Shown here piece by piece: positions 66 through 15,495 of a DNA stretch of 32,541 nucleotides. The DNA is from a virus: positions 1-32,541 of IMG/VR virus record IMGVR_UViG_3300036671_000180, one strand, 5' to 3'. Position 1 is the stretch's first letter. The number at the start of each line of letters is the position of its first letter. The translations under genes were made by a program, and so were the position numbers. Below the pieces are notes generated by a model that worked only from the letters and a program-made list of their open reading frames with translations, was not told where the DNA came from and did not search any database.

Positions 66-158
66 CTCTGCAGTTACAATAGGGTCAAATCCTGATGCAC
101 TTGCAAGGATACCCTCGCTATTACCATCTCACTTCTAATATCTTAACACCACCCCTTA

Positions 159-175
159 CCTAAAAAATTTACAAA
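159..175 (-). repeat. 17-bp dispersed repeat, copy 1
   Basis: CCTAAAAAATTTACAAA, the full consensus, at the far left end of the leftward arm beyond the last terminator, so not tied to a downstream promoter here. Confidence 0.7.
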
Positions 176-205
176 TTGAAAAAAAAAAAAAAAAAAAAAA
201 AAAGA

Positions 206-239
206 AAAAAATTTAGTTGAAAATTAAATTATTGAAAAT
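206..239. repeat. 34-bp AT-rich direct repeat, copy A
   Basis: Identical to 1280-1313 as read by eye. Both copies lie just downstream (in the leftward sense) of a GC-rich terminator hairpin. Copy A abuts a run of more than 20 A residues at about 180-203. Confidence 0.7.
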
Positions 240-256
240 TAAATTAAAAGTCCGCG

Positions 257-272
257 CCCCCCTTTCGGGGGG
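257..272 (-). terminator. Terminator of the leftward arm
   Basis: Six C, TTTC, six G on the plus strand; leftward RNA forms CCCCCC-GAAA-GGGGGG and then an AT-rich tract. It follows the stop codon of the 285-737 gene by 12 nt. Confidence 0.6.
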
Positions 273-284
273 AACGGCTTTCGG

Positions 285-737
285 CTATCCTCGCTCCTCT
301 TGGATCTTTTCAATAATGGCTTTCATTTCCACCATTCGTGAGTCAGAGTATGTGTAGCCTTTATCTAAGAACCTAGTAATCCCAAGCGCCGTAGTAGTTG
401 TTCCCCCACCAAGGTTGATCTTGTAATCAGCAGGTAACTCGTAAAAGAAATTTAGAACTGGGTTCTTTGCAAGAAATTGTTTTTTGATTTCTGCTACCAC
501 TATTGCTTCTGCTGCCTTATTGCTTTTAGTGATTGCCTTAAATTCAGCAATATCAATCTGATTAACCTCCACAACGGCAGTCGGTTGGTTTCCATAAACT
601 ACCTTGCCTGCTAGTTCGAGACGCGATGTAAAAGTTGGAATACCAATTTCGTAGAAGGTAGCAAATTTATATTCACCACTCTTGCTTGAGCGTAAATATG
701 TATTTCCTTCTAACTCTACTTTGAAGTAGTTAGTCAT
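285..737 (-). CDS. Hypothetical protein, 150 aa
   Basis: Family not recognised. Start ATG at 737 follows a good ribosome-binding site (GAGGAGAGG) behind a promoter-hairpin cassette. The protein is mixed alpha/beta with no Cys-rich motif or membrane segment. It has a glycine/threonine stretch (GGGTTTT, about residues 111-117) and a charged C-terminal helix (VEMKAIIEKIQEERG). It is the last gene of the leftward arm and has its own promoter and terminator, so it is a single-gene unit. Confidence 0.8.
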   Translation of the reverse strand: MTNYFKVELEGNTYLRSSKSGEYKFATFYEIGIPTFTSRLELAGKVVYGNQPTAVVEVNQIDIAEFKAITKSNKAAEAIVVAEIKKQFLAKNPVLNFFYELPADYKINLGGGTTTTALGITRFLDKGYTYSDSRMVEMKAIIEKIQEERG

Positions 738-751
738 TTCTTACCTCTCCT

Positions 752-802
752 CAACCTGCTCCCTGCAACTTGATACCCTAAGGGTAACACACCTTCCTGA
801 CA
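752..802 (-). promoter_or_regulatory. Promoter-hairpin cassette for 285-737
   Basis: Read leftward: TGTCAGG (802-796), 9 nt, TACCCT as -10 (786-781). A 5-nt-loop hairpin at the mRNA 5' end follows (arms CAAGTTGC and GCAGGTTG, loop AGGGA, 752-772), then the ribosome-binding site. Confidence 0.7.
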
Positions 803-856
803 TTTGCAAATCGAGTGTTCCATAATGTGGAACTCTGGAAAATTTTTTTCCCTATA

Positions 857-873
857 CTTAAAAAATTTACAAA
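857..873 (-). repeat. 17-bp dispersed repeat, copy 2
   Basis: Variant CTTAAAAAATTTACAAA, between the terminator of 955-1161 and the next promoter. Confidence 0.7.
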
Positions 874-915
874 CTTTATCCGCGCATATTTTAATTTTTT
901 TGAAACCCAAGAAAG

Positions 916-939
916 CCCCCAGCCTCTGCGCACTGGGGG
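916..939 (-). terminator. Terminator of 955-1161
   Basis: CCCCCAG and CTGGGGG arms around a 10-nt loop; leftward RNA continues GCTTTCTTGGGTTTC. Confidence 0.6.
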
Positions 940-954
940 ACTAACTCGGTGGGG

Positions 955-1161
955 CTAAGCCACTAAGCGGTAAAGGTAAAGCCCGCTGTGGTGTGGGCGG
1001 TAGTCCCTGCAATCCTCTAAGCACGGCTCACACACCTCCACGAGAGACTTAAGCGGGCGTGTTGTATTGTAACTAATGCGCTCGTATCCCTGTAATTCAT
1101 AAGTTGCTACTACAACTTTTGCAGAATCTCCGCAAGTCTCGCAAGTCTCTAATTCATTCAT
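955..1161 (-). CDS. Small zinc-ribbon-like protein, 68 aa
   Basis: Start taken at ATG 1161 (MNELETCETCGDS), preceded by GAGGGAGAGG. The longer ORF to 1275 runs back through the leader hairpin and promoter and cannot be translated from the predicted mRNA. Two CxxC pairs, CETC near the N-terminus and CEPC about residue 46, could bind one zinc ion. Function unknown. Its own cassette precedes it and its own terminator follows. Confidence 0.75.
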   Translation of the reverse strand: MNELETCETCGDSAKVVVATYELQGYERISYNTTRPLKSLVEVCEPCLEDCRDYRPHHSGLYLYRLVA

Positions 1162-1175
1162 TATTGCCTCTCCCT

Positions 1176-1226
1176 CAACCTGCTCCCTGCAACTTGATAA
1201 ATCAAGCATACCACACTTTCCTGACA
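1176..1226 (-). promoter_or_regulatory. Promoter-hairpin cassette for 955-1161
   Basis: TGTCAGG (1226-1220), 9 nt, TATGCT (1210-1205). Hairpin 1176-1196 has arms CAAGTTGC and GCAGGTTG with loop AGGGA, the same as the cassette at 752. Confidence 0.7.
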
Positions 1227-1254
1227 TTTTTAACATTTCAAGAAAACCTGTAGC

Positions 1255-1271
1255 ACTAAAAAATTTACAAA
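1255..1271 (-). repeat. 17-bp dispersed repeat, copy 3
   Basis: Variant ACTAAAAAATTTACAAA, upstream of the cassette for 955-1161. Confidence 0.7.
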
Positions 1272-1279
1272 TCAAATCG

Positions 1280-1313
1280 AAAAAATTTAGTTGAAAATTA
1301 AATTATTGAAAAT
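1280..1313. repeat. 34-bp AT-rich direct repeat, copy B
   Basis: Second copy of the segment at 206-239, again between a 17-bp repeat and a terminator, as if the whole intergenic module had been duplicated. Confidence 0.7.
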
Positions 1314-1318
1314 AAGTA

Positions 1319-1348
1319 AAGCCCCCCCACCTTTTAGTGAAGGGACTT
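1319..1348 (-). terminator. Terminator of 1364-1627
   Basis: About 12 pairs including several G-U between AAGTCCCTTCAC and the G-rich arm ending in CTT, read leftward, then TTACTTATTTTC. Confidence 0.55.
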
Positions 1349-1363
1349 CCTTATTTGTGAAAC

Positions 1364-1627
1364 TTAAACCGCGTACTCGAGGTACTCGTACTCAAATGTA
1401 TCAGAGACATTCTTGTAGATCTCCTCGCCAGTAGTCTCGTCATAATTATCAAGTTCACGCATAATTATTTCTAAACCGCTGTCATTTAGTTCAACCGAGA
1501 CTACGTCACTCTTATCCGCTCCCGTAATGAAATTAAAAGGTGCTTCGGTAGCCCATTTAATTAGTGAGTCGGTGGTTGCGAATAGTTGATTCTCGCACTT
1601 GATAATGTCTGCCCAGTAGACTGCCAT
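1364..1627 (-). CDS. Hypothetical protein, 87 aa, acidic
   Basis: Start taken at ATG 1627 (MAVYWADIIKC), 7 nt after GGGAGGA. The longer ORF to 1699 overlaps the hairpin and promoter. The protein is acidic, especially toward the C-terminus (ELDNYDETTGEEIYKNVSDTFEYEYLEYAV), which is typical of small phage proteins that bind a host protein or mimic DNA charge, but that is only a guess. No recognisable domain. Confidence 0.75.
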   Translation of the reverse strand: MAVYWADIIKCENQLFATTDSLIKWATEAPFNFITGADKSDVVSVELNDSGLEIIMRELDNYDETTGEEIYKNVSDTFEYEYLEYAV

Positions 1628-1641
1628 TTTGTGTCCTCCCT

Positions 1642-1692
1642 CAACCTGCTCCCTGCAACTTGATAAATATATTGTCTCACACTTTCCTGACA
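1642..1692 (-). promoter_or_regulatory. Promoter-hairpin cassette for 1364-1627
   Basis: TGTCAGG (1692-1686), 9 nt, GACAAT (1676-1671, a weak -10 that overlaps AATATA). Hairpin 1642-1662: arms CAAGTTGC and GCAGGTTG, loop AGGGA. Confidence 0.65.
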
Positions 1693-1734
1693 TTTGCAAA
1701 TTAGAAATCTCATAATGTGGAACATCAACTCGTA

Positions 1735-1751
1735 CCTAAAAAATTTACAAA
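1735..1751 (-). repeat. 17-bp dispersed repeat, copy 4
   Basis: Full consensus CCTAAAAAATTTACAAA, 5 nt past the stop codon of 1756-1911 in the leftward sense. Confidence 0.7.
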
Positions 1752-1755
1752 CTAT

Positions 1756-1911
1756 TTATCTAGTCTTGAAAAATTTTCTAAGTTTGATTATTAAAATAAC
1801 CGCGAGTGAAAGATATATAGTCCGCGCTGGTAATTCTAAATCTATCCAATAAGTCTCAAGTTCAAATCCATTATTGTTCAGCGTAAACTCTAACCATAAT
1901 AAATATTCCAC
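1756..1911 (-). CDS. Small membrane protein, 51 aa (GTG start)
   Basis: Begins MEYLLWLEFTLNN. The GTG start overlaps the TAG stop of the preceding gene by one base (TAGTG), with GGGG upstream as a ribosome-binding site. One C-terminal hydrophobic helix (about residues 31-43, TIYLSLAVILIIK) is followed by a basic tail (LRKFFKTR). This is the last of four coupled genes that start from the promoter at 2467. Too short to classify; coding status rests on the overlap architecture. Confidence 0.55.
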   Translation of the reverse strand: MEYLLWLEFTLNNNGFELETYWIDLELPARTIYLSLAVILIIKLRKFFKTR

Positions 1912-2006
1912 TACTTACCCCTATTCACAAAACAGTATTGACAAACCCAACCAAAATCCTGTAAGTCAGTATCCAAATCCTCACAAGTGCAAATTAAATT
2001 CATCAT
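1911..2006 (-). CDS. Tiny zinc-knuckle-like peptide, 31 aa
   Basis: Begins MMNLICTCEDLD and ends VCQYCFVNRGK. A CxC pair and a CxxC pair about 16 residues apart suggest one bound zinc. ATG overlaps the upstream TAA by one base (TAATG) and its stop overlaps the next GTG, so it sits in a translationally coupled chain. Function unknown. Confidence 0.55.
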   Translation of the reverse strand: MMNLICTCEDLDTDLQDFGWVCQYCFVNRGK

Positions 2007-2113
2007 TAGTTTTCCTTGTACCAATTATCTTGCTTTAATATTGTTAAGTTAAGTGCTACACCTACACAAACTATCCCGAATATAAATCCTGCAATAAAAC
2101 TAATCAAGTTCAT
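2006..2113 (-). CDS. Single-pass membrane peptide, 35 aa
   Basis: MNLISFIAGFIFGIVCVGVA forms one transmembrane helix (about residues 3-23) with a short polar tail (KQDNWYKEN). Its ATG shares the A of the upstream TGA, and CAGGGG upstream serves as the ribosome-binding site. It could be a small inner-membrane accessory protein; no family recognised. Confidence 0.6.
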   Translation of the reverse strand: MNLISFIAGFIFGIVCVGVALNLTILKQDNWYKEN

Positions 2114-2460
2114 CACCCCTGCGTAACTTCCCATTGCTCCATAGGGGTTGGGTCATAACTATCAAAGCACCTACCGCAGACTAGGTGCTGTATGCCCCGT
2201 GCGTAAGAGTTACCTGCATTAAGGTCTTTCAACTCCTCGGCAAGGAAATCAGATTGACATACATTACAAGTATCGTAGGAAATCTTAAATCCCATTTCAC
2301 CTGCTAGTTTTTCTACAATTACTGATAAGTCGAATAAGTTTTGCGCGTGGGATTCACGCTTTTCAGATTCAATAGGGTCACTACTTAATTGCTGTGCCCA
2401 GTAGTTAGCATCAGTCCAAGCGATGCTAAGTGCGGTAACCATTTCTGTTGTTAGATTCAT
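2113..2460 (-). CDS. Zinc-ribbon protein, 115 aa, leaderless
   Basis: Start taken at ATG 2460 (MNLTTEMVTALSIAW). The -10 box TATGCT ends only 6 nt before it, so the mRNA probably begins at or next to the start codon; the longer ORF to 2478 includes the promoter itself. The N-terminal half is helical; the C-terminal half has CNVC (about residues 65-68) and CGRC (about 96-99), spaced like a zinc ribbon. It heads the four-gene overlapping operon down to 1756. Confidence 0.75.
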   Translation of the reverse strand: MNLTTEMVTALSIAWTDANYWAQQLSSDPIESEKRESHAQNLFDLSVIVEKLAGEMGFKISYDTCNVCQSDFLAEELKDLNAGNSYARGIQHLVCGRCFDSYDPTPMEQWEVTQG

Positions 2461-2466
2461 AGAGAT

Positions 2467-2488
2467 AGCATACATCACTACCCTGACA
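2467..2488 (-). promoter_or_regulatory. Promoter (leaderless type) for 2113-2460
   Basis: TGTCAGG (2488-2482), 9 nt, TATGCT (2472-2467), then 6 nt to ATG. The sequence from promoter to start codon is the same as at 2858. Confidence 0.65.
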
Positions 2489-2526
2489 TTTGCAAATCCA
2501 CCCGCGCTTACTTAAAAACCCGGTCC

Positions 2527-2543
2527 CCTAAAAAATTTACAAC
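2527..2543 (-). repeat. 17-bp dispersed repeat, copy 5
   Basis: CCTAAAAAATTTACAAC, between a terminator and the 2467 promoter. Confidence 0.7.
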
Positions 2544-2559
2544 TCCCAGATAAAAAGAA

Positions 2560-2577
2560 AGAGGCGCGAACGCCCCT
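2560..2577 (-). terminator. Terminator of 2591-2851
   Basis: Leftward AGGGGCG-TTCG-CGCCTCT followed by TTCTTTTTATC; a classic UUCG tetraloop hairpin with U tract. Confidence 0.75.
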
Positions 2578-2590
2578 GACTTTTAGGTTC

Positions 2591-2851
2591 TTATGCGTCC
2601 CAACCAACCAGTTCGCCCTCAAACGCAGCGTCCTCGTGTAGAGGCGCGCTTGCGGACTCGCAGCAGCATTTAATGAAATTGCAGTCGTCACAGCCTTCCT
2701 CATAGTCAAAGTCAAAGTCAGCCGCGTGACGCAGATCAAGCACGCGATCGTAGAAATTGGCATTCTCCAAATCTGCATTCCAAAGGGTTGGGGCAGAAGC
2801 GGACTGGACGTACGAGATTTGGCTCTCGCTGGCGACTGTGGTTGTAATCAT
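2591..2851 (-). CDS. Cys-rich small protein, 86 aa, leaderless
   Basis: Start taken at ATG 2851 (MITTTVASESQIS), 6 nt after the -10 box, not at 2908, which lies upstream of the promoter. An acidic centre (DFDFDYEEGCDDC) leads into a cysteine cluster CDDCNFIKCCC (about residues 54-64), a possible metal site. Function unknown. Confidence 0.7.
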   Translation of the reverse strand: MITTTVASESQISYVQSASAPTLWNADLENANFYDRVLDLRHAADFDFDYEEGCDDCNFIKCCCESASAPLHEDAAFEGELVGWDA

Positions 2852-2857
2852 AGAGAT

Positions 2858-2879
2858 AGCATACATCACTACCCTGACA
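2858..2879 (-). promoter_or_regulatory. Promoter (leaderless type) for 2591-2851
   Basis: TGTCAGG (2879-2873), 9 nt, TATGCT (2863-2858), 6 nt to ATG. A second TGTCAGG at 2899-2893 lies 13 nt further upstream without its own -10, so this promoter carries two boxes. Confidence 0.65.
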
Positions 2880-2941
2880 TTTTCAAAACTACCCTGACAA
2901 TGCGCCACACCTGATCGCTAAACAGAATCACACCCCATAGG

Positions 2942-2958
2942 GTTGTAAATTTTTTAGG
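2942..2958 (+). repeat. 17-bp dispersed repeat, inverted copy
   Basis: TTGTAAATTTTTTAGGG on the plus strand; the only copy found in the opposite orientation, between a terminator and the 2858 promoter. Confidence 0.65.
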
Positions 2959-2980
2959 GAAATAAACCCAAAACCAAAAA

Positions 2981-3001
2981 CCCCCTGAGATTTTCAGGGG
3001 G
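2981..3001 (-). terminator. Terminator of 3022-3195
   Basis: CCCCCTGA and TCAGGGGG arms; leftward RNA continues TTTTTGGTTTTGGG. Confidence 0.7.
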
Positions 3002-3021
3002 CTTGGGGTAATTTTTATGGG

Positions 3022-3195
3022 TTAGTAGTTCTCGTTCACCCATTCAATAATTTCGCTCATTGTGTCCGCGCTACGAGCGACCGCGATAAAGTCCGCGTCC
3101 TCTAGTAGTAGATTACCTGAAACCGTAGTTTCGCCCTCTACAACACTAAGTACGACTCTTAAGTTCAGGGTAGATAATAGTTGTCCTGTGTTCAT
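3022..3195 (-). CDS. Hypothetical protein, 57 aa
   Basis: MNTGQLLSTLNLRVVLSVV..., ATG 4 nt after the upstream stop, with GAGGGGG as a strong ribosome-binding site inside the end of the upstream gene. Amphipathic, ending SEIIEWVNENY. Second gene of a two-gene unit with 3200-3556. No family recognised. Confidence 0.65.
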   Translation of the reverse strand: MNTGQLLSTLNLRVVLSVVEGETTVSGNLLLEDADFIAVARSADTMSEIIEWVNENY

Positions 3196-3199
3196 TTTC

Positions 3200-3556
3200 T
3201 CACACCCCCTCTACTACGGCTTTAACGTAATTAACCGCGTCTATTGAGTAACCGCCAATGTGCCAATCGTATTGCCCGAAAGGCGTGCCCATTTCGTATT
3301 GTTTCCAATCGTAAATAGTTGCGTAAGTAAGTTTGTAAGTGTTCACGTCCATAAATTCAATAACCCATTCCGCAGAAACTTTTCCGTCAGAAACGGTGTG
3401 ATCATTAATATCAATTAGGTACGGTAGCCCGAACTTTTCTACAAGTGTGTCGTATGTAGTTACTACAACACCGCGTAGCCCACTACCGTTACAAGTACTT
3501 TCGTTATCTGTTTTGTAAGATAGTTCCGAACCATCTACTGTAATTGTTGAAATCAT
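3200..3556 (-). CDS. Hypothetical protein, 118 aa
   Basis: Start taken at ATG 3556 (MISTITVDGSELSYK), 6 nt after GGGAGGGG; the ORF to 3634 covers the hairpin and promoter. Beta-rich composition with a Trp/Tyr-rich C-terminal half (YDWKQYEMGTPFGQYDWHIGG), suggesting a compact beta fold. Function unknown. Confidence 0.75.
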   Translation of the reverse strand: MISTITVDGSELSYKTDNESTCNGSGLRGVVVTTYDTLVEKFGLPYLIDINDHTVSDGKVSAEWVIEFMDVNTYKLTYATIYDWKQYEMGTPFGQYDWHIGGYSIDAVNYVKAVVEGV

Positions 3557-3579
3557 TTTGTCCCCTCCCAGAAACTGTC

Positions 3580-3623
3580 GCCCTATTTGGGCTATGGATA
3601 CATTGTACCACACTAACCTGACA
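3580..3623 (-). promoter_or_regulatory. Promoter-hairpin cassette for 3200-3556
   Basis: TGTCAGG (3623-3617), 9 nt, TACAAT (3607-3602); hairpin GCCC-AAATA-GGGC at 3580-3592. Confidence 0.7.
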
Positions 3624-3645
3624 TATTTAACCATAACCTAATACA

Positions 3646-3775
3646 AGTGTGTTAGCGAGCCTTGGTCTGCAATCATTGTTAGTTATTTGTAGTCAGGCTG
3701 GCTTGCCTTTTCCGTTCACTAACGACCCGTTACCCGTTTATCCTCGGCACTCGCTAACTCACTCTATTTAGTTAC
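3646..3775 (-). ncRNA. Candidate structured RNA with its own promoter
   Basis: The promoter at 3782 points leftward into about 130 nt with no credible ORF. The predicted transcript, starting near 3775, is closed by a stem of 13 pairs plus one mismatch: AGTG-A-GTTAGCGAG (3763-3750) with CTCGCTAAC-A-CACT (3659-3646). A small internal hairpin, TAACG-GGT-CGTTA, is visible near 3724. No U-rich tail follows, so it may read into 3200-3556 or be processed. No known RNA family recognised; alternatives are a long leader or a decayed gene. Confidence 0.5.
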
Positions 3776-3781
3776 AAAACC

Positions 3782-3803
3782 ATTGTACCACACTAACCTG
3801 ACA
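3782..3803 (-). promoter_or_regulatory. Promoter for the 3646-3775 RNA
   Basis: TGTCAGG (3803-3797), 9 nt, TACAAT (3787-3782). Nearly the same sequence as the promoter at 3602, but no start codon with a ribosome-binding site follows. Confidence 0.65.
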
Positions 3804-3806
3804 TTT

Positions 3807-4001
3807 TTAGACAGGCATTAAACTAATGTCATAAGTGTCTAAGCGTTCACGAAAGTTAGCCCCATGTACCTTGTAGCCAACTTCTATTGCTTGATCTATA
3901 ACCTGATCAGCAGTTACCGCATCAAGTTGTTCTACCAAACTTAGTAGTTCTACTTCGGCATTTCCATTAAAACCATAAAAAGTTACTTTGTATTTTTTCA
4001 C
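3807..4001 (-). CDS. Hypothetical protein, 64 aa (GTG start)
   Basis: Start taken at GTG 4001 (MKKYKVTFYGFNGNAEVELL), 8 nt after GAGAGGAGAG. The longer ORF to 4079 crosses the promoter. Predicted beta strand, helix, beta. Function unknown. Its stop lies just beyond the next promoter. Confidence 0.65.
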   Translation of the reverse strand: MKKYKVTFYGFNGNAEVELLSLVEQLDAVTADQVIDQAIEVGYKVHGANFRERLDTYDISLMPV

Positions 4002-4029
4002 TTTGTTTTCTCTCCTCTCTGTTAAAACC

Positions 4030-4051
4030 ATTGTAGCATATCTCCCTGACA
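4030..4051 (-). promoter_or_regulatory. Promoter for 3807-4001
   Basis: TGTCAGG (4051-4045), 9 nt, TACAAT (4035-4030). Short leader with no clear pentaloop hairpin before GAGAGGAGAG. Confidence 0.65.
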
Positions 4052-4088
4052 TTTTTAACCTAGGTAGAAACCGCGCCAACTATGTACC

Positions 4089-4105
4089 CCTAAAAAATTT
4101 ACAAC
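4089..4105 (-). repeat. 17-bp dispersed repeat, copy 6
   Basis: CCTAAAAAATTTACAAC. The flank continues CAATTTG and resembles the flank at 4921 closely. Confidence 0.7.
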
Positions 4106-4119
4106 AATTTGGAAATGAA

Positions 4120-4153
4120 ATATCCCCCCGGCCAAGTTAGCGCGGGGAGATAT
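4120..4153 (-). terminator. Terminator of 4163-4330
   Basis: ATATCTCCCC pairs with GGGGGGATAT around a 14-nt loop, then TTCATTTCC, read leftward. Confidence 0.65.
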
Positions 4154-4162
4154 CTCTCTTAA

Positions 4163-4330
4163 CTACTCGGCGTTAAAGTAGTTAATAGTTATTGCCTCGA
4201 TACGGTGTTGCGCGTGCCCGCCTAAAATGTCTGCAACTTTCTGCAAACTGTGTGCTTCGAAAGTGTAGGTAGTTTCACTAATCGTTACTGATACGCCCGC
4301 GATATTGCTATCTGAAATATTTACTAGCAT
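4163..4330 (-). CDS. Hypothetical protein, 55 aa
   Basis: Start taken at ATG 4330 (MLVNISDSNIAG) after AAGGGAGAG; overlaps the end of 4324-4590 by 7 nt, so probably coupled. Third gene of the unit begun by 4595-4816. Ends HRIEAITINYFNAE. No family recognised. Confidence 0.65.
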   Translation of the reverse strand: MLVNISDSNIAGVSVTISETTYTFEAHSLQKVADILGGHAQHRIEAITINYFNAE

Positions 4331-4590
4331 TTTATATTCTCTCCCTTTTCTGCTGTGTTCCAAGAATTTATTGACAATAAACTCCACTCTGAATTACTTA
4401 GGTCAAGCGTGATCTCCTCCGCGCTATCAACGTGAAAGAATATCTGATCGTCAGGCACTCCACTAGGCGTGTACTCAAACTCGCCTTCGTCGTCCCAGTC
4501 CGAGCCCTCGCAGGAAATATATACTTCCTCTACCTCGCTACCTTCGTAATTAAAAGATATTGTGCAGTACGCGCCAACTAGATAACTCAT
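4324..4590 (-). CDS. Hypothetical acidic protein, 88 aa
   Basis: Start taken at ATG 4590 (MSYLVGAYCTISFNYEG), with GGAAGGTGAG as ribosome-binding site in the end of the upstream gene; GTG at 4602 is an alternative. Strongly acidic middle (EGSDWDDEGEFEY). Function unknown. Confidence 0.65.
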   Translation of the reverse strand: MSYLVGAYCTISFNYEGSEVEEVYISCEGSDWDDEGEFEYTPSGVPDDQIFFHVDSAEEITLDLSNSEWSLLSINSWNTAEKGENIKC

Positions 4591-4594
4591 AGGG

Positions 4595-4816
4595 TTACTC
4601 ACCTTCCTTTGCTAAATAGTCTGCTAGTTCTGTGATCAAGCCACTAGTCAGTATGTCAAAACGATTTTGAATTTCGTCAAGGCTAAGCCCAAACTCAACG
4701 CTTACTGAAAGCACCGCAATAACGTGTTCGTTGGCGGTGTTATTCAGGTTTGGGTACTTAGCATTATCTAGTGCCGTGTATGCCTTTACAAAATCTTGTG
4801 TGTTTAGGTTTCCCAT
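4595..4816 (-). CDS. Hypothetical protein, 73 aa
   Basis: MGNLNTQDFVKAYTALDNAKYPN, helix-rich. ATG preceded by GAGGAGAGG. First gene of a three-gene unit (4595, 4324, 4163). The middle (SVEFGLSLDEIQNRFDILTS) could be a small helix-turn-helix, but this is weak. Confidence 0.7.
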   Translation of the reverse strand: MGNLNTQDFVKAYTALDNAKYPNLNNTANEHVIAVLSVSVEFGLSLDEIQNRFDILTSGLITELADYLAKEGE

Positions 4817-4829
4817 TCTTACCTCTCCT

Positions 4830-4880
4830 CAAGTTACTCCCTGTAACCTGATAAAACCATTGTAGCACACTAACCTGACA
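4830..4880 (-). promoter_or_regulatory. Promoter-hairpin cassette for the 4816 unit
   Basis: TGTCAGG (4880-4874), 9 nt, TACAAT (4864-4859). Hairpin 4830-4850: arms CAGGTTAC and GTAACTTG, loop AGGGA. Relative to the cassette at 752, both arms change together and all 8 pairs are kept. Confidence 0.75.
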
Positions 4881-4920
4881 TATTTACATAAACTATAAAA
4901 CCGCGATATATATTTCCGCG

Positions 4921-4937
4921 CTTAAAAAATTTACAAC
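4921..4937 (-). repeat. 17-bp dispersed repeat, copy 7
   Basis: CTTAAAAAATTTACAAC, between a terminator and the 4816-unit promoter. Confidence 0.7.
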
Positions 4938-4949
4938 AATTTGAAAATA

Positions 4950-4987
4950 AAATATCTCCCTACCTGTCTTAGCGTAGGGAGATATTT
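4950..4987 (-). terminator. Terminator of 4998-5342
   Basis: Perfect 14-bp stem (AAATATCTCCCTAC with GTAGGGAGATATTT), 10-nt loop; leftward RNA runs into TTATTTTC. Confidence 0.75.
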
Positions 4988-4997
4988 ATTAGGGAGA

Positions 4998-5342
4998 TTA
5001 CTCGGTAATAAGTTTTACATATTCATTCTGGTAAGAACACGCTAGCCAAGCCTCGCTATAATCCTTCTTAAGGATATCCCTGTCAATGTCGGTACGAGTA
5101 ATAGTTTTTACTTTCACTCTATCCGCGCCATTGATAGTGCCTGTCTCGGCTTCTCCTAGCAATTCAAGAATTGCTTTCTTAGCCTCTTGTTCTTGTTCTT
5201 TAAGTACCGCGATAGCCTTACGCGATTCTTTAAGTGTTGCAATTAGTTCCTCAACGTTAGTGCCGTCAAGAATTGCAACGTTGCTTGTAACAACAACTTC
5301 CGTTGTTACCTTTCGAGTAATGGTGCTGGTCATAGTAACCAC
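4998..5342 (-). CDS. Hypothetical protein, 114 aa; paralogue of 12528-12860
   Basis: Starts at GTG 5342, or at ATG 5333 (MTSTITRKV), both after AGAGAGG. It has a coiled-coil-like centre (KESRKAIAVLKEQEQEAKKA), then GEAETGTINGADRVKV and DYSEAWLACSYQNEY. The same pattern, G-x-A-x-x-GTI-x-G followed by Y-x-EAWLA, occurs in 12528-12860. The helix plus GTI-x-G core recalls the accessory tail segment of phage YqaJ-type recombination proteins; that link is from memory and tentative. Confidence 0.7.
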   Translation of the reverse strand: MVTMTSTITRKVTTEVVVTSNVAILDGTNVEELIATLKESRKAIAVLKEQEQEAKKAILELLGEAETGTINGADRVKVKTITRTDIDRDILKKDYSEAWLACSYQNEYVKLITE

Positions 5343-5361
5343 TTGCCTCTCTGTGTCTCTC

Positions 5362-5406
5362 GCCCTATCTGGGCTTGTAAAATCATTGTAGCATATTAAC
5401 CTGACA
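5362..5406 (-). promoter_or_regulatory. Promoter-hairpin cassette for 4998-5342
   Basis: TGTCAGG (5406-5400), 9 nt, TACAAT (5390-5385); hairpin GCCC-AGATA-GGGC at 5362-5374. Confidence 0.7.
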
Positions 5407-5434
5407 TATTCTAATCGAGATAAGCGAGCGAGTT

Positions 5435-5463
5435 GCCCCCCTACTTAAAGTAAGCAAGGGGGC
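5435..5463 (-). terminator. Terminator of 5473-5637
   Basis: GCCCCCTT opposite AGGGGGGC, about 14-nt loop. No strong U tract, so of moderate quality. Confidence 0.5.
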
Positions 5464-5472
5464 TTCTCCGCG

Positions 5473-5637
5473 CTAGTTACTTAAACCGTGCCCAACGTGA
5501 ACAAGTCTTGTTTCAACTTCGCCTGTCTCTATCCCCCAGCCATTGGCTAGAAACTCGCGTGCTTGTTCCTCGTCGCCAACGTTTAAGTGTGTTGAGTCAA
5601 TGGCTACTGTTTTAATTACCTGAAACTCGTATCTCAT
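5473..5637 (-). CDS. Hypothetical protein, 54 aa
   Basis: Start taken at ATG 5637 (MRYEFQVIKTVAID), after GATAGGAGAG; the longer ORF to 5724 includes promoter and hairpin. Pattern of strand, helix (DEEQAREFLANGWGIE) and strand is seen. Single-gene unit. No function assigned. Confidence 0.7.
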   Translation of the reverse strand: MRYEFQVIKTVAIDSTHLNVGDEEQAREFLANGWGIETGEVETRLVHVGHGLSN

Positions 5638-5656
5638 AATCTCTCCTATCTGATAA

Positions 5657-5704
5657 TTGCTATCTGCAACTTCATTAAAATCATTGTAGCACACTAACCT
5701 GACA
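5657..5704 (-). promoter_or_regulatory. Promoter-hairpin cassette for 5473-5637
   Basis: TGTCAGG (5704-5698), 9 nt, TACAAT (5688-5683); hairpin TTGC-AGATA-GCAA at 5657-5669. Confidence 0.7.
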
Positions 5705-5744
5705 ATATTTAATCGGTGCCCCACATTGTGGGATCGAGCCTCTA

Positions 5745-5761
5745 CCTAAAAAATTTACAAA
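5745..5761 (-). repeat. 17-bp dispersed repeat, copy 8
   Basis: CCTAAAAAATTTACAAA; a degenerate second copy (GTAAAAAATTAACAA) follows about 10 nt to the right. Confidence 0.7.
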
Positions 5762-5795
5762 CGTTAGCCGTAAAAAATTAACAAGAATATAAAAA

Positions 5796-5823
5796 AGCGA
5801 GTGTGCCCGTAGGCACACCCGCT
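5796..5823 (-). terminator. Terminator of 5829-6071
   Basis: Leftward AGCGGGTGTGCC-TACG-GGCACACTCGCT then TTTTTATATTC; 12-bp stem (one G-U), strong. Confidence 0.8.
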
Positions 5824-5828
5824 AATTT

Positions 5829-6071
5829 TTAACCTAGTTCGCAGGGTTCGAGATGTCCTGATCCATTAAGTTCTGCGTCCATTGAGGCGATTAACCCGTG
5901 CCCGTTATCGAATATCATAATTGGCGCAAAGTTATTTCCCTCCCAACCTAGTATCTCTAGTTCAGAATCGGTAAGGTGACGAACCTCAATGAGGCGCGCA
6001 CCGATAACGTCTTTACAAAACTCCGCATAAAGCACGAACGGAGATTCAGTCTTGTCGTCTAGTGCCGTCAT
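5829..6071 (-). CDS. Hypothetical protein, 80 aa
   Basis: MTALDDKTESPFVLYAEFCKDVIGARLIEVRHLTDSE... The core (IGARLIEVRHLTDSELEILGW, then IMIFDNGHGLIASMDAELNGSG) resembles a small protein common in phages in which a strand, helix and strand lead to an FDDG-type turn and a closing DxExNGxG motif. Function unknown there too. It follows 6074-6514 with a 2-nt gap and is probably co-translated. Confidence 0.7.
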   Translation of the reverse strand: MTALDDKTESPFVLYAEFCKDVIGARLIEVRHLTDSELEILGWEGNNFAPIMIFDNGHGLIASMDAELNGSGHLEPCELG

Positions 6072-6073
6072 AA

Positions 6074-6514
6074 CTACACCTCTACTCTTTCTTTTAGCGG
6101 GTTGTCAGCGGTTAAACCAGTCGCGTTGCGATATAACTTCGCGCCGTCTCTCCAGTCTACCCAAAAGCCGTCCGAGGTAATCTCTACTAGATCTCTGTAA
6201 ACATCTTTCATATGGATAAGGCACGCCGTAACCACCGCGTCATAAGGCTTACCCGCGGTCTTGCAAAAGTTAAAGCCTTGATCTCCACTAGCCATATAAA
6301 AGGTTTCGTGTGAGTCTTTTCCGTACCCGTTAAAACTGACCACAAAGTTATCTGCAATCCAGCCGTTTAATTTCTTGCCGTGACCGTCTGCAATTTTGTA
6401 ACCCTCGCGAATTGCATTTTCAATAATGCGAACCACGCCTAAAGAAAACATTTCAAAAAGTAATGCGTCATCACGGCTTGATTCTACTTGTGTATAATAA
6501 TGAGTATATCCCAT
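6074..6514 (-). CDS. MGYTHY-type phage protein, 146 aa
   Basis: Start taken at ATG 6514 (MGYTHYYTQVESSRDD), after GGAGAGGATT; the ORF to 6577 crosses the hairpin. Many phages and plasmids carry proteins beginning MGYTHYW with the same central features (NGWIADNFVVSFNG, ETFYMA, FNFCKTAGKPYDAVVTACLI), and their function is unknown. Here FCKTAGKPYDAVVTA matches that family's conserved block. First gene of a two-gene unit. Confidence 0.75.
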   Translation of the reverse strand: MGYTHYYTQVESSRDDALLFEMFSLGVVRIIENAIREGYKIADGHGKKLNGWIADNFVVSFNGYGKDSHETFYMASGDQGFNFCKTAGKPYDAVVTACLIHMKDVYRDLVEITSDGFWVDWRDGAKLYRNATGLTADNPLKERVEV

Positions 6515-6527
6515 TGGTAATCCTCTC

Positions 6528-6576
6528 CGTAAGTCTCTCTGACCTACGTTGTAAACATTACACCATAACCCTGACA
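6528..6576 (-). promoter_or_regulatory. Promoter-hairpin cassette for 6074-6514
   Basis: TGTCAGG (6576-6570), 9 nt, TAATGT (6560-6555). Hairpin 6528-6548: arms CGTAGGTC and GACTTACG (8 pairs, one G-U), loop AGAGA. Confidence 0.7.
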
Positions 6577-6636
6577 TTTGTCAAATTGAACGCAAAACTA
6601 TTTTTTCCAAGTATCTAAAAATTTTATTTTTTCCTA

Positions 6637-6653
6637 CCTAAAAAATTTACAGA
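6637..6653 (-). repeat. 17-bp dispersed repeat, copy 9
   Basis: CCTAAAAAATTTACAGA. It overlaps the TAA stop codon of 6647-6952. Confidence 0.65.
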
Positions 6654-6952
6654 TCGGATATGTCTGTGGATATTGATAAAACCAATTGGTTATTAACAAG
6701 ATCTAAAAAATAATTTTTAGGTAATTCCTCGTTGAGATATTGGATTGAGAAATCAGCCAAAACGTAAAGATCATCTAACAGTTCCTGACTAGCACCGTTA
6801 AGAAACTTTGGCTTATCAGCGTTCCATACATCTATAAGAATATCGTATCCGTGCTTAATTGCTAACTCGACTATCGATATATCAAACTCGACAGGACTAG
6901 ACAGGTTACCGTCTAACCAAACTCCGCAACTTGAGTCCGTTACCTCTATCAA
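6647..6952 (-). CDS. Hypothetical protein, 101 aa (TTG start)
   Basis: MIEVTDSSCGVWLDGN...; start TTG at 6952 is chosen because AGGAG sits 6 nt upstream and no ATG is near. Leucine/isoleucine-rich alpha/beta protein, ending LVLSISTDISDL. Last gene of the unit begun at 7727. No terminator hairpin follows; the stop lies inside a 17-bp repeat. Confidence 0.6.
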   Translation of the reverse strand: MIEVTDSSCGVWLDGNLSSPVEFDISIVELAIKHGYDILIDVWNADKPKFLNGASQELLDDLYVLADFSIQYLNEELPKNYFLDLVNNQLVLSISTDISDL

Positions 6953-6991
6953 AACTAACTCCTAGTCCTAACCTTATCCGTGCCGTTAATG

Positions 6992-7408
6992 CTACAAGAC
7001 AGACTTTAGTAACTCTTTAGCGGTCTCTATCGCGTCGTCAAGTGTGTCGCACACTACGCCGTCAGGAATGTCGTCATTGTAAACTTCGAACCAGTTATTG
7101 TTGTGGTAAATCTGGTAACCTAAGTTTACGCAGACTTGCTTTAGTAAAACGTGCAAGTCTCTATCCGTTTGGATACCTGCCTCCTCTAGTCTATCCGTGT
7201 ATCGGATAACCGTTGCACCGCGTTCTACTAACTCACCGTCTACAATTTCGGGGATAGATAAATACATCTCGCCGTTAGCCACAACGTAGAGAGTATTCTC
7301 GCCGTTCGTGACCCTTGCTATGTGTGTTTCCCCTTCTCCGTAGCAGTAGAACTCTGAACTTTGACGGGTGGTATCCACGCCCTTTTCCCAAATAACTTTA
7401 GTTTTCAT
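6992..7408 (-). CDS. Hypothetical protein, 138 aa
   Basis: MKTKVIWEKGVDTTRQSSEFYCYGEGETH..., ATG sharing a base with the upstream stop (TAATG); AGGACG upstream. Beta-rich N-terminal half, then a DLHVLLKQVCVNLGYQIYHNNNWFEVYND block and a C-terminal helix (DALDDAIETAKELLKSVL-like). The pattern NNWFEVYND...DTLDDAIE resembles small DUF1653- or PH-like folds, but I cannot place it. Confidence 0.75.
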   Translation of the reverse strand: MKTKVIWEKGVDTTRQSSEFYCYGEGETHIARVTNGENTLYVVANGEMYLSIPEIVDGELVERGATVIRYTDRLEEAGIQTDRDLHVLLKQVCVNLGYQIYHNNNWFEVYNDDIPDGVVCDTLDDAIETAKELLKSVL

Positions 7409-7578
7409 TATTGCGCGTCCTCTGCAAAATAATGCCCTGCGGTAGCCACGCCATTAAAAGTGCTAACCACAATGTCGCATACAAAATCCATTTCTTGCTC
7501 TGGAAGGTGGTCAGAGAGATAAGTAATTAAATTACTTTGTAACTGTTCCTTAAGTTCGTTTAGTGTGTTTAATCCCAT
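7408..7578 (-). CDS. Hypothetical protein, 56 aa
   Basis: MGLNTLNELKEQLQSNLITY..., ATG overlaps the upstream TAA by one base and its own TAA overlaps the next ATG. Two helices (NELKEQLQSNLITYLSDHL and EQEMDFVCDIVVSTFNGVA). Small helical protein of unknown role in a four-gene coupled chain. Confidence 0.65.
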   Translation of the reverse strand: MGLNTLNELKEQLQSNLITYLSDHLPEQEMDFVCDIVVSTFNGVATAGHYFAEDAQ

Positions 7579-7727
7579 TACGCCACTTCCTCAATGACAC
7601 AAGCCGAGAGAATGTCTGACCGAATTAGGTCTGACAATTCATCATAAACAATGTCCTCTAGACTTTCTCCGAGGTCGTAATTGTTCCAGTCGATTACTAA
7701 CTCAATTACTACTTTAGTTTTTTTCAT
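7578..7727 (-). CDS. Hypothetical acidic protein, 49 aa
   Basis: MKKTKVVIELVIDWNNYDLG..., strand then helix (EDIVYDELSDLIRSDILSA), acidic. ATG after GAGAGGTAGAAA. First gene of the chain 7727-7578-7408-6952 behind a promoter cassette. No family recognised. Confidence 0.65.
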   Translation of the reverse strand: MKKTKVVIELVIDWNNYDLGESLEDIVYDELSDLIRSDILSACVIEEVA

Positions 7728-7742
7728 TTTCTACCTCTCCGC

Positions 7743-7802
7743 GCAAGTTACGATTTGTACCTTGCCCACTTAATAAATTCATTGTAGCATATTAGCCTGA
7801 CA
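7743..7802 (-). promoter_or_regulatory. Promoter-hairpin cassette for the 7727 chain
   Basis: TGTCAGG (7802-7796), 9 nt, TACAAT (7786-7781). Hairpin 7743-7765: arms GCAAGGTAC and GTAACTTGC (8 of 9 paired), loop AAATC. Confidence 0.65.
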
Positions 7803-7817
7803 TATTTTGTCTATTTG

Positions 7818-8012
7818 TTAAATCTCTTTAACAATTTCTTGAAACATAGAATCTAAAACCTTTTCGTAAAGATCTAATAGTTCCTCATTAGTTAAGCCGT
7901 GCTCAACTTTAGGTAGCGTGTAGGTCTCTGGCTTACTCTCTGGCTGGTAACCGCCAGTAGCCCACGCAAGTCCTGCATATCCTTTTTTAATTTCATCATT
8001 GTAGTTAGTCAC
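7818..8012 (-). CDS. Hypothetical protein, 64 aa (GTG start)
   Basis: Start moved to GTG 8012 (MTNYNDEIKKGYAGLAW), 6 nt after GGAGAG. The first ATG (8063) overlaps the -10 box, and the codons between it and 8012 encode the leader hairpin. Ends in an acidic amphipathic helix (LLDLYEKVLDSMFQEIVKEI). Single-gene unit of unknown function. Confidence 0.6.
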   Translation of the reverse strand: MTNYNDEIKKGYAGLAWATGGYQPESKPETYTLPKVEHGLTNEELLDLYEKVLDSMFQEIVKEI

Positions 8013-8036
8013 TACGCACTCTCCAGTTTCTCTAAA

Positions 8037-8083
8037 GTCACTCTCTGCAACTTCATAATTCATTGTAACATATTAACCTGACA
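8037..8083 (-). promoter_or_regulatory. Promoter-hairpin cassette for 7818-8012
   Basis: TGTCAGG (8083-8077), 9 nt, TACAAT (8067-8062); hairpin GTTGC-AGAGA-GTGAC at 8037-8051 (5 pairs, two G-U). Confidence 0.6.
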
Positions 8084-8097
8084 TATTCTAATCCGAC

Positions 8098-8131
8098 TAG
8101 CCCGCACACCTGAGACCAGATATGCGGGCTA
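8098..8131 (-). terminator. Hairpin after 8141-8482, probable terminator
   Basis: TAGCCCGCA and TGCGGGCTA arms (9 bp), about 16-nt loop; no U tract follows, so termination is uncertain. Confidence 0.45.
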
Positions 8132-8140
8132 AAGGCTTGG

Positions 8141-8482
8141 CTAATCAATAACTATCGACCAACTGCCGTAATAATCAGAAATTATCTGACCTTTATAAAT
8201 CTCTAAAACTTCCTCCATAACTTTCGCTACGCGTGCATGCACTCTGTATGCATAAGCATAATCGTTACGGTCATAGCAATCACTCATTCTGTCGTTGCAC
8301 AGATCAATTTCAGTATGAGCGCAACCCAGAAACAGAGCCGCACCCTTTGCGTTATTTATAATAAGTGTGTTGCCCTCAAGATCCCATAAGTCTTTTTCAT
8401 ACTCTGGTTCATTATTGTAGTTATCACATGCTCCGTCTAAGTCTTGTGCGGTTCTCTTTGTTACCTTAATTAGTTTCTGCAT
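8141..8482 (-). CDS. Hypothetical protein, 113 aa
   Basis: MQKLIKVTKRTAQDLDGACDNYNNEPEYEKDLWDL..., ATG after GAGGGGTAGATA. Four cysteines, an acidic N-terminal half and a helical C-terminal half (YAYAYRVHARVAKVMEEVLEIY). Single-gene unit with its own cassette. Function unknown. Confidence 0.75.
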   Translation of the reverse strand: MQKLIKVTKRTAQDLDGACDNYNNEPEYEKDLWDLEGNTLIINNAKGAALFLGCAHTEIDLCNDRMSDCYDRNDYAYAYRVHARVAKVMEEVLEIYKGQIISDYYGSWSIVID

Positions 8483-8501
8483 TATCTACCCCTCAACCTC
8501 G

Positions 8502-8545
8502 AGCCAACTTGGCTACAAGAAAGATATTACACTATCTCCCTGACA
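8502..8545 (-). promoter_or_regulatory. Promoter-hairpin cassette for 8141-8482
   Basis: TGTCAGG (8545-8539), 9 nt, TAATAT (8529-8524); hairpin AGCC-AAGTT-GGCT at 8502-8514. Confidence 0.65.
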
Positions 8546-8576
8546 TTTGTCAAATAGAGTTAATTTTTAATAAATA

Positions 8577-8593
8577 CCTAAAAAATTTACAAC
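8577..8593 (-). repeat. 17-bp dispersed repeat, copy 10
   Basis: CCTAAAAAATTTACAAC, between the 8620 hairpin and the 8524 promoter. Confidence 0.7.
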
Positions 8594-14832: not shown

Positions 14833-15495
14833 TCAAACTCCTAAGGTGTCAGCCTTCGGGTAACTCTTTGCCGTTAGTCTTAATAACTTAAGTAGTTCTC
14901 TCTTATGCTTCTTGTCATCTGGCATTATGTACAAATACCTGTGCTTGCCTTCCCGTTTAACGGGTTTCCAGTTTTTGCTTGCCGCTATTGCTGGTGTAGT
15001 GTTCACGCCGTTTTGTCTTGGGTGGCGCAAGCGGTTGGTCTCATCTAGGTAGAAGGTCGCCTTACCAGACATGCCCGTGTATAGCGCATTAGTAGCCTGA
15101 TAGATCACGCCGATATGCCCTTGAGTCGCATCGGCAAAAGAAATTACAGCGTTGTAGTAAGGCCTGTCTATTTTCAGTTGCTTCAGGGCTCTTACAATAA
15201 ACCAAGATTCCGCGTTTTTTGGTATCCGATCCAGTAAAACAAGCCTATGTAGTTCGGTTACAGACCTTTTATACTCGATTCCAAAGATACTTGCGCACAC
15301 ATTTTCGCTACAAGGGGTGGCAAATGCACATACTCCGACTAGATCCAAGCCGTCAAAGAGCCCGTAACACATCGGGCCGTTGTGGATTCCGTGGGAATAG
15401 TGGTGTTCTTTGACAAATTCCTTACCAACAGAGGAGTTTATCTTCTGGACAGTGTAGTTGGCCGTAGCCTTTCGCATGACTACGTCGGATTCCAT
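14833..15495 (-). CDS. Mom-like DNA-modification protein (GNAT-related), 220 aa
   Basis: Motifs match the phage Mu Mom family, which adds a carbamoylmethyl-type group to N6 of adenine in phage DNA and blocks restriction. They are HHYSHG (31-36), CYGLFDGLDLVGVCAFATP (43-61), ELHRLVLLDRIPKNAESWF (81-99) and VISFADATQGHIGVIYQATN (117-136). The C-terminal region is basic (KRELLKLLRLTAKSYPKA). Start ATG 15495 has only a weak ribosome-binding site; TAACAT 6 nt upstream suggests a leaderless mRNA. Its own terminator follows. Two other modification-type genes lie at 28.3-30.2 kb. Confidence 0.8.
   Translation of the reverse strand: MESDVVMRKATANYTVQKINSSVGKEFVKEHHYSHGIHNGPMCYGLFDGLDLVGVCAFATPCSENVCASIFGIEYKRSVTELHRLVLLDRIPKNAESWFIVRALKQLKIDRPYYNAVISFADATQGHIGVIYQATNALYTGMSGKATFYLDETNRLRHPRQNGVNTTPAIAASKNWKPVKREGKHRYLYIMPDDKKHKRELLKLLRLTAKSYPKADTLGV

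Follow-up and report, generated by a model that had tools for sequence, protein, structure and literature searches.

The small RNAs of bacteriophage T4, RNA C and RNA D (rnaC and rnaD; species 1 and 2 RNA), are of unknown role (PMC3014915, PMC9697503). RNA C is 139 nt and RNA D 119 nt long, and both are encoded beside the T4 tRNA genes. The structured phage RNAs GOLLD and ROOL, often located near tRNA islands, have no known role either, and GOLLD members are often longer than 800 nt (PMC12286853). Additionally, a replication-linked non-coding RNA is encoded beside parABS in extrachromosomal mycobacteriophages, which are temperate (PMC7157519).

The window analysed in this study is the whole of a 32.5-kb viral record (IMGVR_UViG_3300036671_000180, 32,541 nt). 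Its left part is a row of small minus-strand gene cassettes with promoters between them, and the original prediction was that one slot in this row is filled by an RNA. The slot does lie between two coding cassettes, being flanked by genes 3807-4001 and 3200-3556. From sequence comparison, it is fairly likely to be a separate gene, with its own promoter, encoding a small non-coding RNA (~105-135 nt) that would act in trans in its folded form. The best reading of this RNA is a new family of small structured phage RNA, known in kind and previously undescribed; its 5' end is predicted near 3775, and its 3' end would fall near 3646-3641. The slot is laid out as follows:

3641-3775, minus strand: putative small structured RNA gene, aligned with full-length homologues in two other phages (G020 and G076)
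3782-3803, minus strand: promoter core of the RNA gene, a TGTCAGG element plus a TACAAT -10 box (TGTCAGGTTAGTGTGGTACAAT), one of ten copies in the window
3601-3623, minus strand: promoter of the next cassette (gene 3200-3556) and downstream bound of the slot, identical in its 23-nt version to the promoter of the RNA gene

T4 RNA C and RNA D are like the slot RNA in kind, and its conserved length would fit their range of ~120-140 nt. The T4 RNAs adjoin tRNA genes, as do two of the three copies of the slot RNA (those of G020 and G076), but the window copy does not; furthermore, a single tRNA cluster contains both T4 RNAs, and the three copies here are each preceded by a promoter of their own. 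Models R1 and R2, run against the T4 tRNA region, revealed no homology to rnaC or rnaD (nothing with R1, chance scores of at most 6.5 bits with R2, filters off). GOLLD and ROOL are much larger than the conserved unit of ~105-135 nt, which is without an Rfam match. An Rfam search of the window at gathering score returned nothing for the slot, and a search of positions 3560-3860 at E values up to 10 found neither GOLLD nor ROOL, only chance matches far below the gathering scores. The G020 and G076 copies likewise gave only chance matches far below the gathering scores. None of the three is therefore a match for 6S RNA or other Rfam small RNAs, so that the Rfam/Infernal check proposed with the original prediction yielded no credible match for any of the three copies. 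By these tests, the slot RNA belongs to none of T4 RNA C/RNA D, GOLLD and ROOL. The mycobacteriophage RNA is likewise a non-coding transcript of actinobacterial phages, the slot RNA being a predicted one, but it adjoins parABS; no partition genes were noticed, in passing, next to the slot.

A freshwater actinobacterium is the probable host of the window virus: the viral AAA ATPase shares 67-69% identity with its counterpart in a 129-kb lake phage, Actinomycetia phage DSL-LC01, and the gene after the ATPase is the same in both. Many relatives of the window ATPase were found among IMG/VR contigs. Elsewhere in the window, positions 14833-15495 (minus strand) encode a Mom-like DNA modification protein (phrog_1384, E 1e-56).

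The promoter at 3782 had been described as equal to those of the coding units. The pattern TGTCAGGN{8,16}TACAAT matches exactly at 10 minus-strand sites of the window and at none on the plus strand, against an expectation of 0.02; the RNA promoter is one of these ten alike copies, and its 23-mer recurs unchanged before the next gene, in agreement with that description. The distance from promoter to start codon is mostly 29-55 nt for the other copies and 226 nt for the RNA promoter. With 4-6 stops in each of the three minus-strand frames of 3775-3641, the ~135 nt that follow the promoter contain no credible reading frame, which also had been claimed. No terminator-like site was found in 3600-3800, including at the 3' end of the element, and a discrete 3' end would therefore probably be made by processing. 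An intrinsic terminator would have a GC-rich stem with a short loop and then a run of T, whereas the closing stem here encloses ~90 nt.

Several recurrent features were observed around the promoters of these phages. A 5' leader, TAAC[AT]AAATA, directly follows promoters of tRNA, RNA and protein genes (L155, L162, L145, L082 and L083; window 3774-3765). A TTGTAAATTTTTTAGG-type element, possibly an upstream promoter element or an end signal, lies ~40-45 nt upstream of many cassette promoters (family D4; ten minus-strand sites in window 158-8593) and is absent at promoters 3782 and 3602. A recurring 5'-leader hairpin (families D6 and D8), for example CAGGTTAC-AGGGA-GTAACTTG, has stems that vary between copies and are mostly still paired; its window copies are:

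757-780, 1181-1204, 1647-1670, 4835-4858, 5658-5681 and 8041-8062, minus strand: 5'-leader hairpins

In G020 and G076, the -10 box of the stable-RNA gene promoters (L155:1657-1639, L180:5531-5513 and promoters close by, minus strand) is overlain by the inverted repeat CTAGT-N7-ACTAG; its outer bases vary between copies while the symmetry is kept, and it is a possible operator. A cassette promoter variant with a full -35 box forms the palindrome TTGACAAATGTCA (window 6557-6589 and 8526-8558; L009:6050-6080), pointing to the TGTCAGG element as one half of an operator.

Taken from the window alone, the fold of the element was unusual only modestly, and the case from one sequence would have stayed open. 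The predicted stem pairing 3763-3750 with 3659-3646 was present as described, with 13 of 14 positions forming Watson-Crick pairs and one mismatch, and the inner hairpin was also predicted in the fold. However, stems of this quality arise ~0.6 times per shuffled whole window, so the closing stem by itself is weak evidence. The fold of 3640-3776 has an energy of -36.6 kcal/mol (z -2.45; 3 of 200 shuffles as good), and the opposite strand gives the same fold score.

The decisive evidence came from homologues. A first covariance model, built from the window sequence alone, matched only itself in the first set of loci and gave one chance match in 80 more loci; the copy in G020 (IMGVR_UViG_3300009163_000073) lay outside the flank of these locus sets and surfaced only once whole viral records were searched, as a full-length match of 92 bits (E 1e-20). 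The copy in G076 (IMGVR_UViG_3300044630_002434) was found with the pattern of bases common to the window and G020 and then scored by the model, again as a full-length match (119 bits, E 1e-26). When model R1 or R2 was run over the full length of ~130 viral records, the RNA turned up only in the window, G020 and G076; this is a lower bound, because many of the records are fragments and the collections may lack near relatives of the window. Searches elsewhere were negative: blastn of named phages with the window or G076 sequence gave nothing beyond short chance words, the RNA was not found in 395 Actinomycetes genomes, and a 20-base exact probe had no match in IMG/VR. Candidates set aside were 15 loci with the stem-arm pattern (judged unrelated by eye), L161, which matched the shared-core pattern besides G076 and G020 and was unsupported by the model, 15 bacterial and archaeal loci with the shared-core pattern (none matching the model), and weak matches at L158-L160 and L182, which were taken as chance; L158 looks protein-coding.

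Core identity among the window, G020 and G076 is 92%, 86% and 85% for the three pairs. In a comparison of the first 8.7 kb of the window with the G076 and G020 stretches, the RNA is the strongest nucleotide match (86% identity over 142 nt and 81% over 144 nt), the best coding match reaching 76%; recent exchange between phages, and not selection, could account for part of this high identity. The immediate flanks of the RNA do not match among the three phages. In all three, the similarity sets in 6 nt past the -10 box and stops at the closing stem, as would be predicted for a transcription start and an RNA end.

One alternative that had been named as refuting an RNA gene is that a protein gene once stood in the slot and has decayed, the stem being there by chance. 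The modest folding z-score and the frequency of equal stems in shuffled windows would suit it, but the 85-92% core identity in three phages stands beside one-base indels inside the core and stops in every sense frame of the three copies, which break the frames and leave no shared protein. Two of the three copies have one open antisense frame, though it is not the same frame after the indels, and protein-level matches to related contigs were not beyond chance. A decayed gene is accordingly not supported and is considered extremely improbable.

The neighbours of the RNA differ between the phages. In G076, the order is homologues of genes 3200-3556 and 3022-3195, tRNA-Tyr, the RNA and a further apparently non-coding stretch; in G020, tRNA-Tyr and a further apparently non-coding stretch lie upstream of the RNA and a 49-aa reading frame lies downstream. 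The upstream tRNA gene of these two phages has no counterpart near the window copy, where the only tRNA is ~27 kb away. The RNA was not found in L009, L010, L011 and L036, which carry a 57% identical homologue of gene 3200-3556; L009 has a different upstream neighbour before this homologue, and the homologue of gene 3807-4001 in these four contigs is located elsewhere, in opposite orientation. The RNA therefore behaves like a cassette that can move, not like a leader tied to a single gene.

These arrangements bear on a cis-acting reading, in which gene 3200-3556 would be transcribed from promoter 3782 as well as promoter 3602, and the fold would be a 5' leader that regulates or stabilises the longer mRNA. 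Since no terminator lies between the element and gene 3200-3556, transcripts probably run through, and other leaders in the window phage carry small hairpins. The downstream genes are different in G020 and G076, however, where a riboswitch or leader would be expected to keep to one gene or family; the G076 homologue of gene 3200-3556 sits upstream of the RNA, and the L009 homologue has no such element before it. A leader role is thus judged unlikely.

Other apparently non-coding stretches were observed in the same set of phages. In G020, a promoter-led stretch of ~300 nt lies between tRNA-Tyr and the RNA (L155 ~1990-1660, minus strand), with a promoter and 5' leader that resemble those of the RNA gene. 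Additionally, a second conserved non-coding element, GGTCTTGCACTAGGTAAGAC...ACTGGAGTGCGGTGC, was detected in seven contigs. It consists of two hairpins with complementary loops (GCACT/AGTGC), the second stem varying between copies and staying paired; its L180 copy had no Rfam match, and it looks like a leader element or another small RNA. Its copies are:

L180 ~5375-5320, minus strand: GGTCTTGCACTAGGTAAGAC...ACTGGAGTGCGGTGC element
L009:7657-7699, L010:5724-5766 and L011:10801-10843: the same element
L036:2572-2614, L089:5732-5783 and L088:8354-8394: further copies

A consensus structure was derived with RNAalifold from the three-sequence alignment of the window, G020 and G076. The predicted rod comprises the closing stem P1, a 5'-heavy internal loop, a 3-pair helix (GGU/ACC), the stem P4 with a 3-nt bulge and the hairpin P5, placed in the window as follows:

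3749-3757, minus strand: P1 closing stem, 5' arm, paired with 3652-3660; both-sided changes at three pairs; extended outwards to 3763 in the window
3652-3660, minus strand: P1 closing stem, 3' arm in the alignment fold; extended outwards to 3646 in the window
3728-3742, minus strand: invariant internal-loop sequence GATAAACGGGTAACG, identical in all three phages
3718-3726, minus strand: P4 stem, 5' arm, paired with 3672-3674 and 3678-3683; G-U to C-G and U-A to C-G changes
3672-3683, minus strand: P4 stem, 3' arm with the 3-nt bulge, in the alignment fold
3695-3708, minus strand: P5 hairpin, AGGC-loop-GCCT; stem kept in all three phages, loop varying in length and sequence

Five pairs show both-sided changes, including U-A to C-G in P1 and both U-A to C-G and G-U to C-G in P4. 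With the window-specific outer pairs left out, 97% of cells are standard pairs, against 24-40% in slid controls with partners shifted by one to three columns. The observed covariation was reached in 5 of 500 shuffles, for three sequences and a structure fitted to the alignment on which it was scored. Neither homologue has an unusual fold energy (z +0.44 and -0.87). The comparison divides the long closing stem of the original prediction: ~7 pairs are common to the three phages, while the rest of the 13-pair stem is largely specific to the window phage, and the terminal arms are the least conserved part of the element. The single-sequence fold contains a helix, GGUC/GACC, that the G020 sequence disrupts, and the alignment fold was adopted instead. 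A retron-like reading of the TTAGCGAG arm was dropped, as the arm is not conserved and no reverse transcriptase was noticed nearby.

The inverted arms at the ends, the changing contexts between phages and the equal fold z-score on both strands could also describe a DNA element with an inverted repeat, such as a recombination, replication or packaging site or a small mobile element. Against this, conservation starts a fixed 6 nt past the -10 box in three phages with different promoter sequences (the -10 box is TACAAT in the window and TAGACT in G020 and in G076), the inner stems also change compensatorily, and the terminal arms are the least conserved; a DNA element is very unlikely. Combined, the two homologues, the matching borders, the compensatory changes, the missing shared frame and the different neighbours support the original claim of a gene slot filled by an RNA. 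The wider suggestion made with it, a possible regulation of host or phage functions, reaches beyond these comparisons.

The pattern of conservation also suggests how such an RNA would be read. It is doubtful that the RNA is a base-pairing regulator whose unpaired seed would silence a single mRNA, or a few, of the host or phage. Some unpaired stretches are invariant, the 5' leader TAACNAAATAGAG among them, and minus-strand window sequence contains two 13-nt complementary matches, counted without a chance control. However, a seed would be expected as a single conserved stretch, and conservation here extends across stems and several loops; the TAAC[AT]AAATA leader is not specific to the RNA, as it also follows other promoters, and one of the two matches falls in a plus-strand gene region. 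With compensated stems, invariant loops and conservation spread over both, the slot fits an RNA that would be read by its shape, most likely by a protein or ribonucleoprotein.

For the preferred reading of a trans-acting RNA gene, the phage would start the RNA from its own promoter, of the same family as those of the small protein cassettes. The transcript would fold into the rod of closing stem P1, internal loop with the invariant GAUAAACGGGUAACG, middle stem P4 and hairpin P5, and the folded RNA would then act in trans, its near-invariant internal loops exposed for contact with some protein or ribonucleoprotein in the infected cell. The proposed mode is such a contact, rather than seed pairing with an mRNA or a switch for a downstream gene. 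Transcription of the slot, a discrete 3' end, action in trans and a partner of protein type are all inferred from the nucleotide sequences. The tRNA-Tyr gene near the RNA in two phages would be compatible with a role linked to translation, though it does not demonstrate one; comparisons with E. coli rRNA, used as a proxy, gave no sign of mimicry or antisense pairing beyond shuffles. More speculatively, the RNA may represent a new compact class that travels from phage to phage as a promoter-led cassette and, during infection, binds a host machine or defence protein through the invariant GAUAAACGGGUAACG loop as contact face, blocking or redirecting it; this is put forward as a tentative possibility.

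Phage small RNAs without a known role are an old open question, and T4 RNA C and RNA D are still unexplained. With its near-invariant loops, sharp borders and portable one-promoter cassette, the putative family described here would provide a short, testable RNA. It could serve as a probe for lake metatranscriptomes, as bait for partner capture and as a covariance model for further members. An RNA gene may thus fill a slot in a row of small phage cassettes, and such genes are missed by protein-based annotation.
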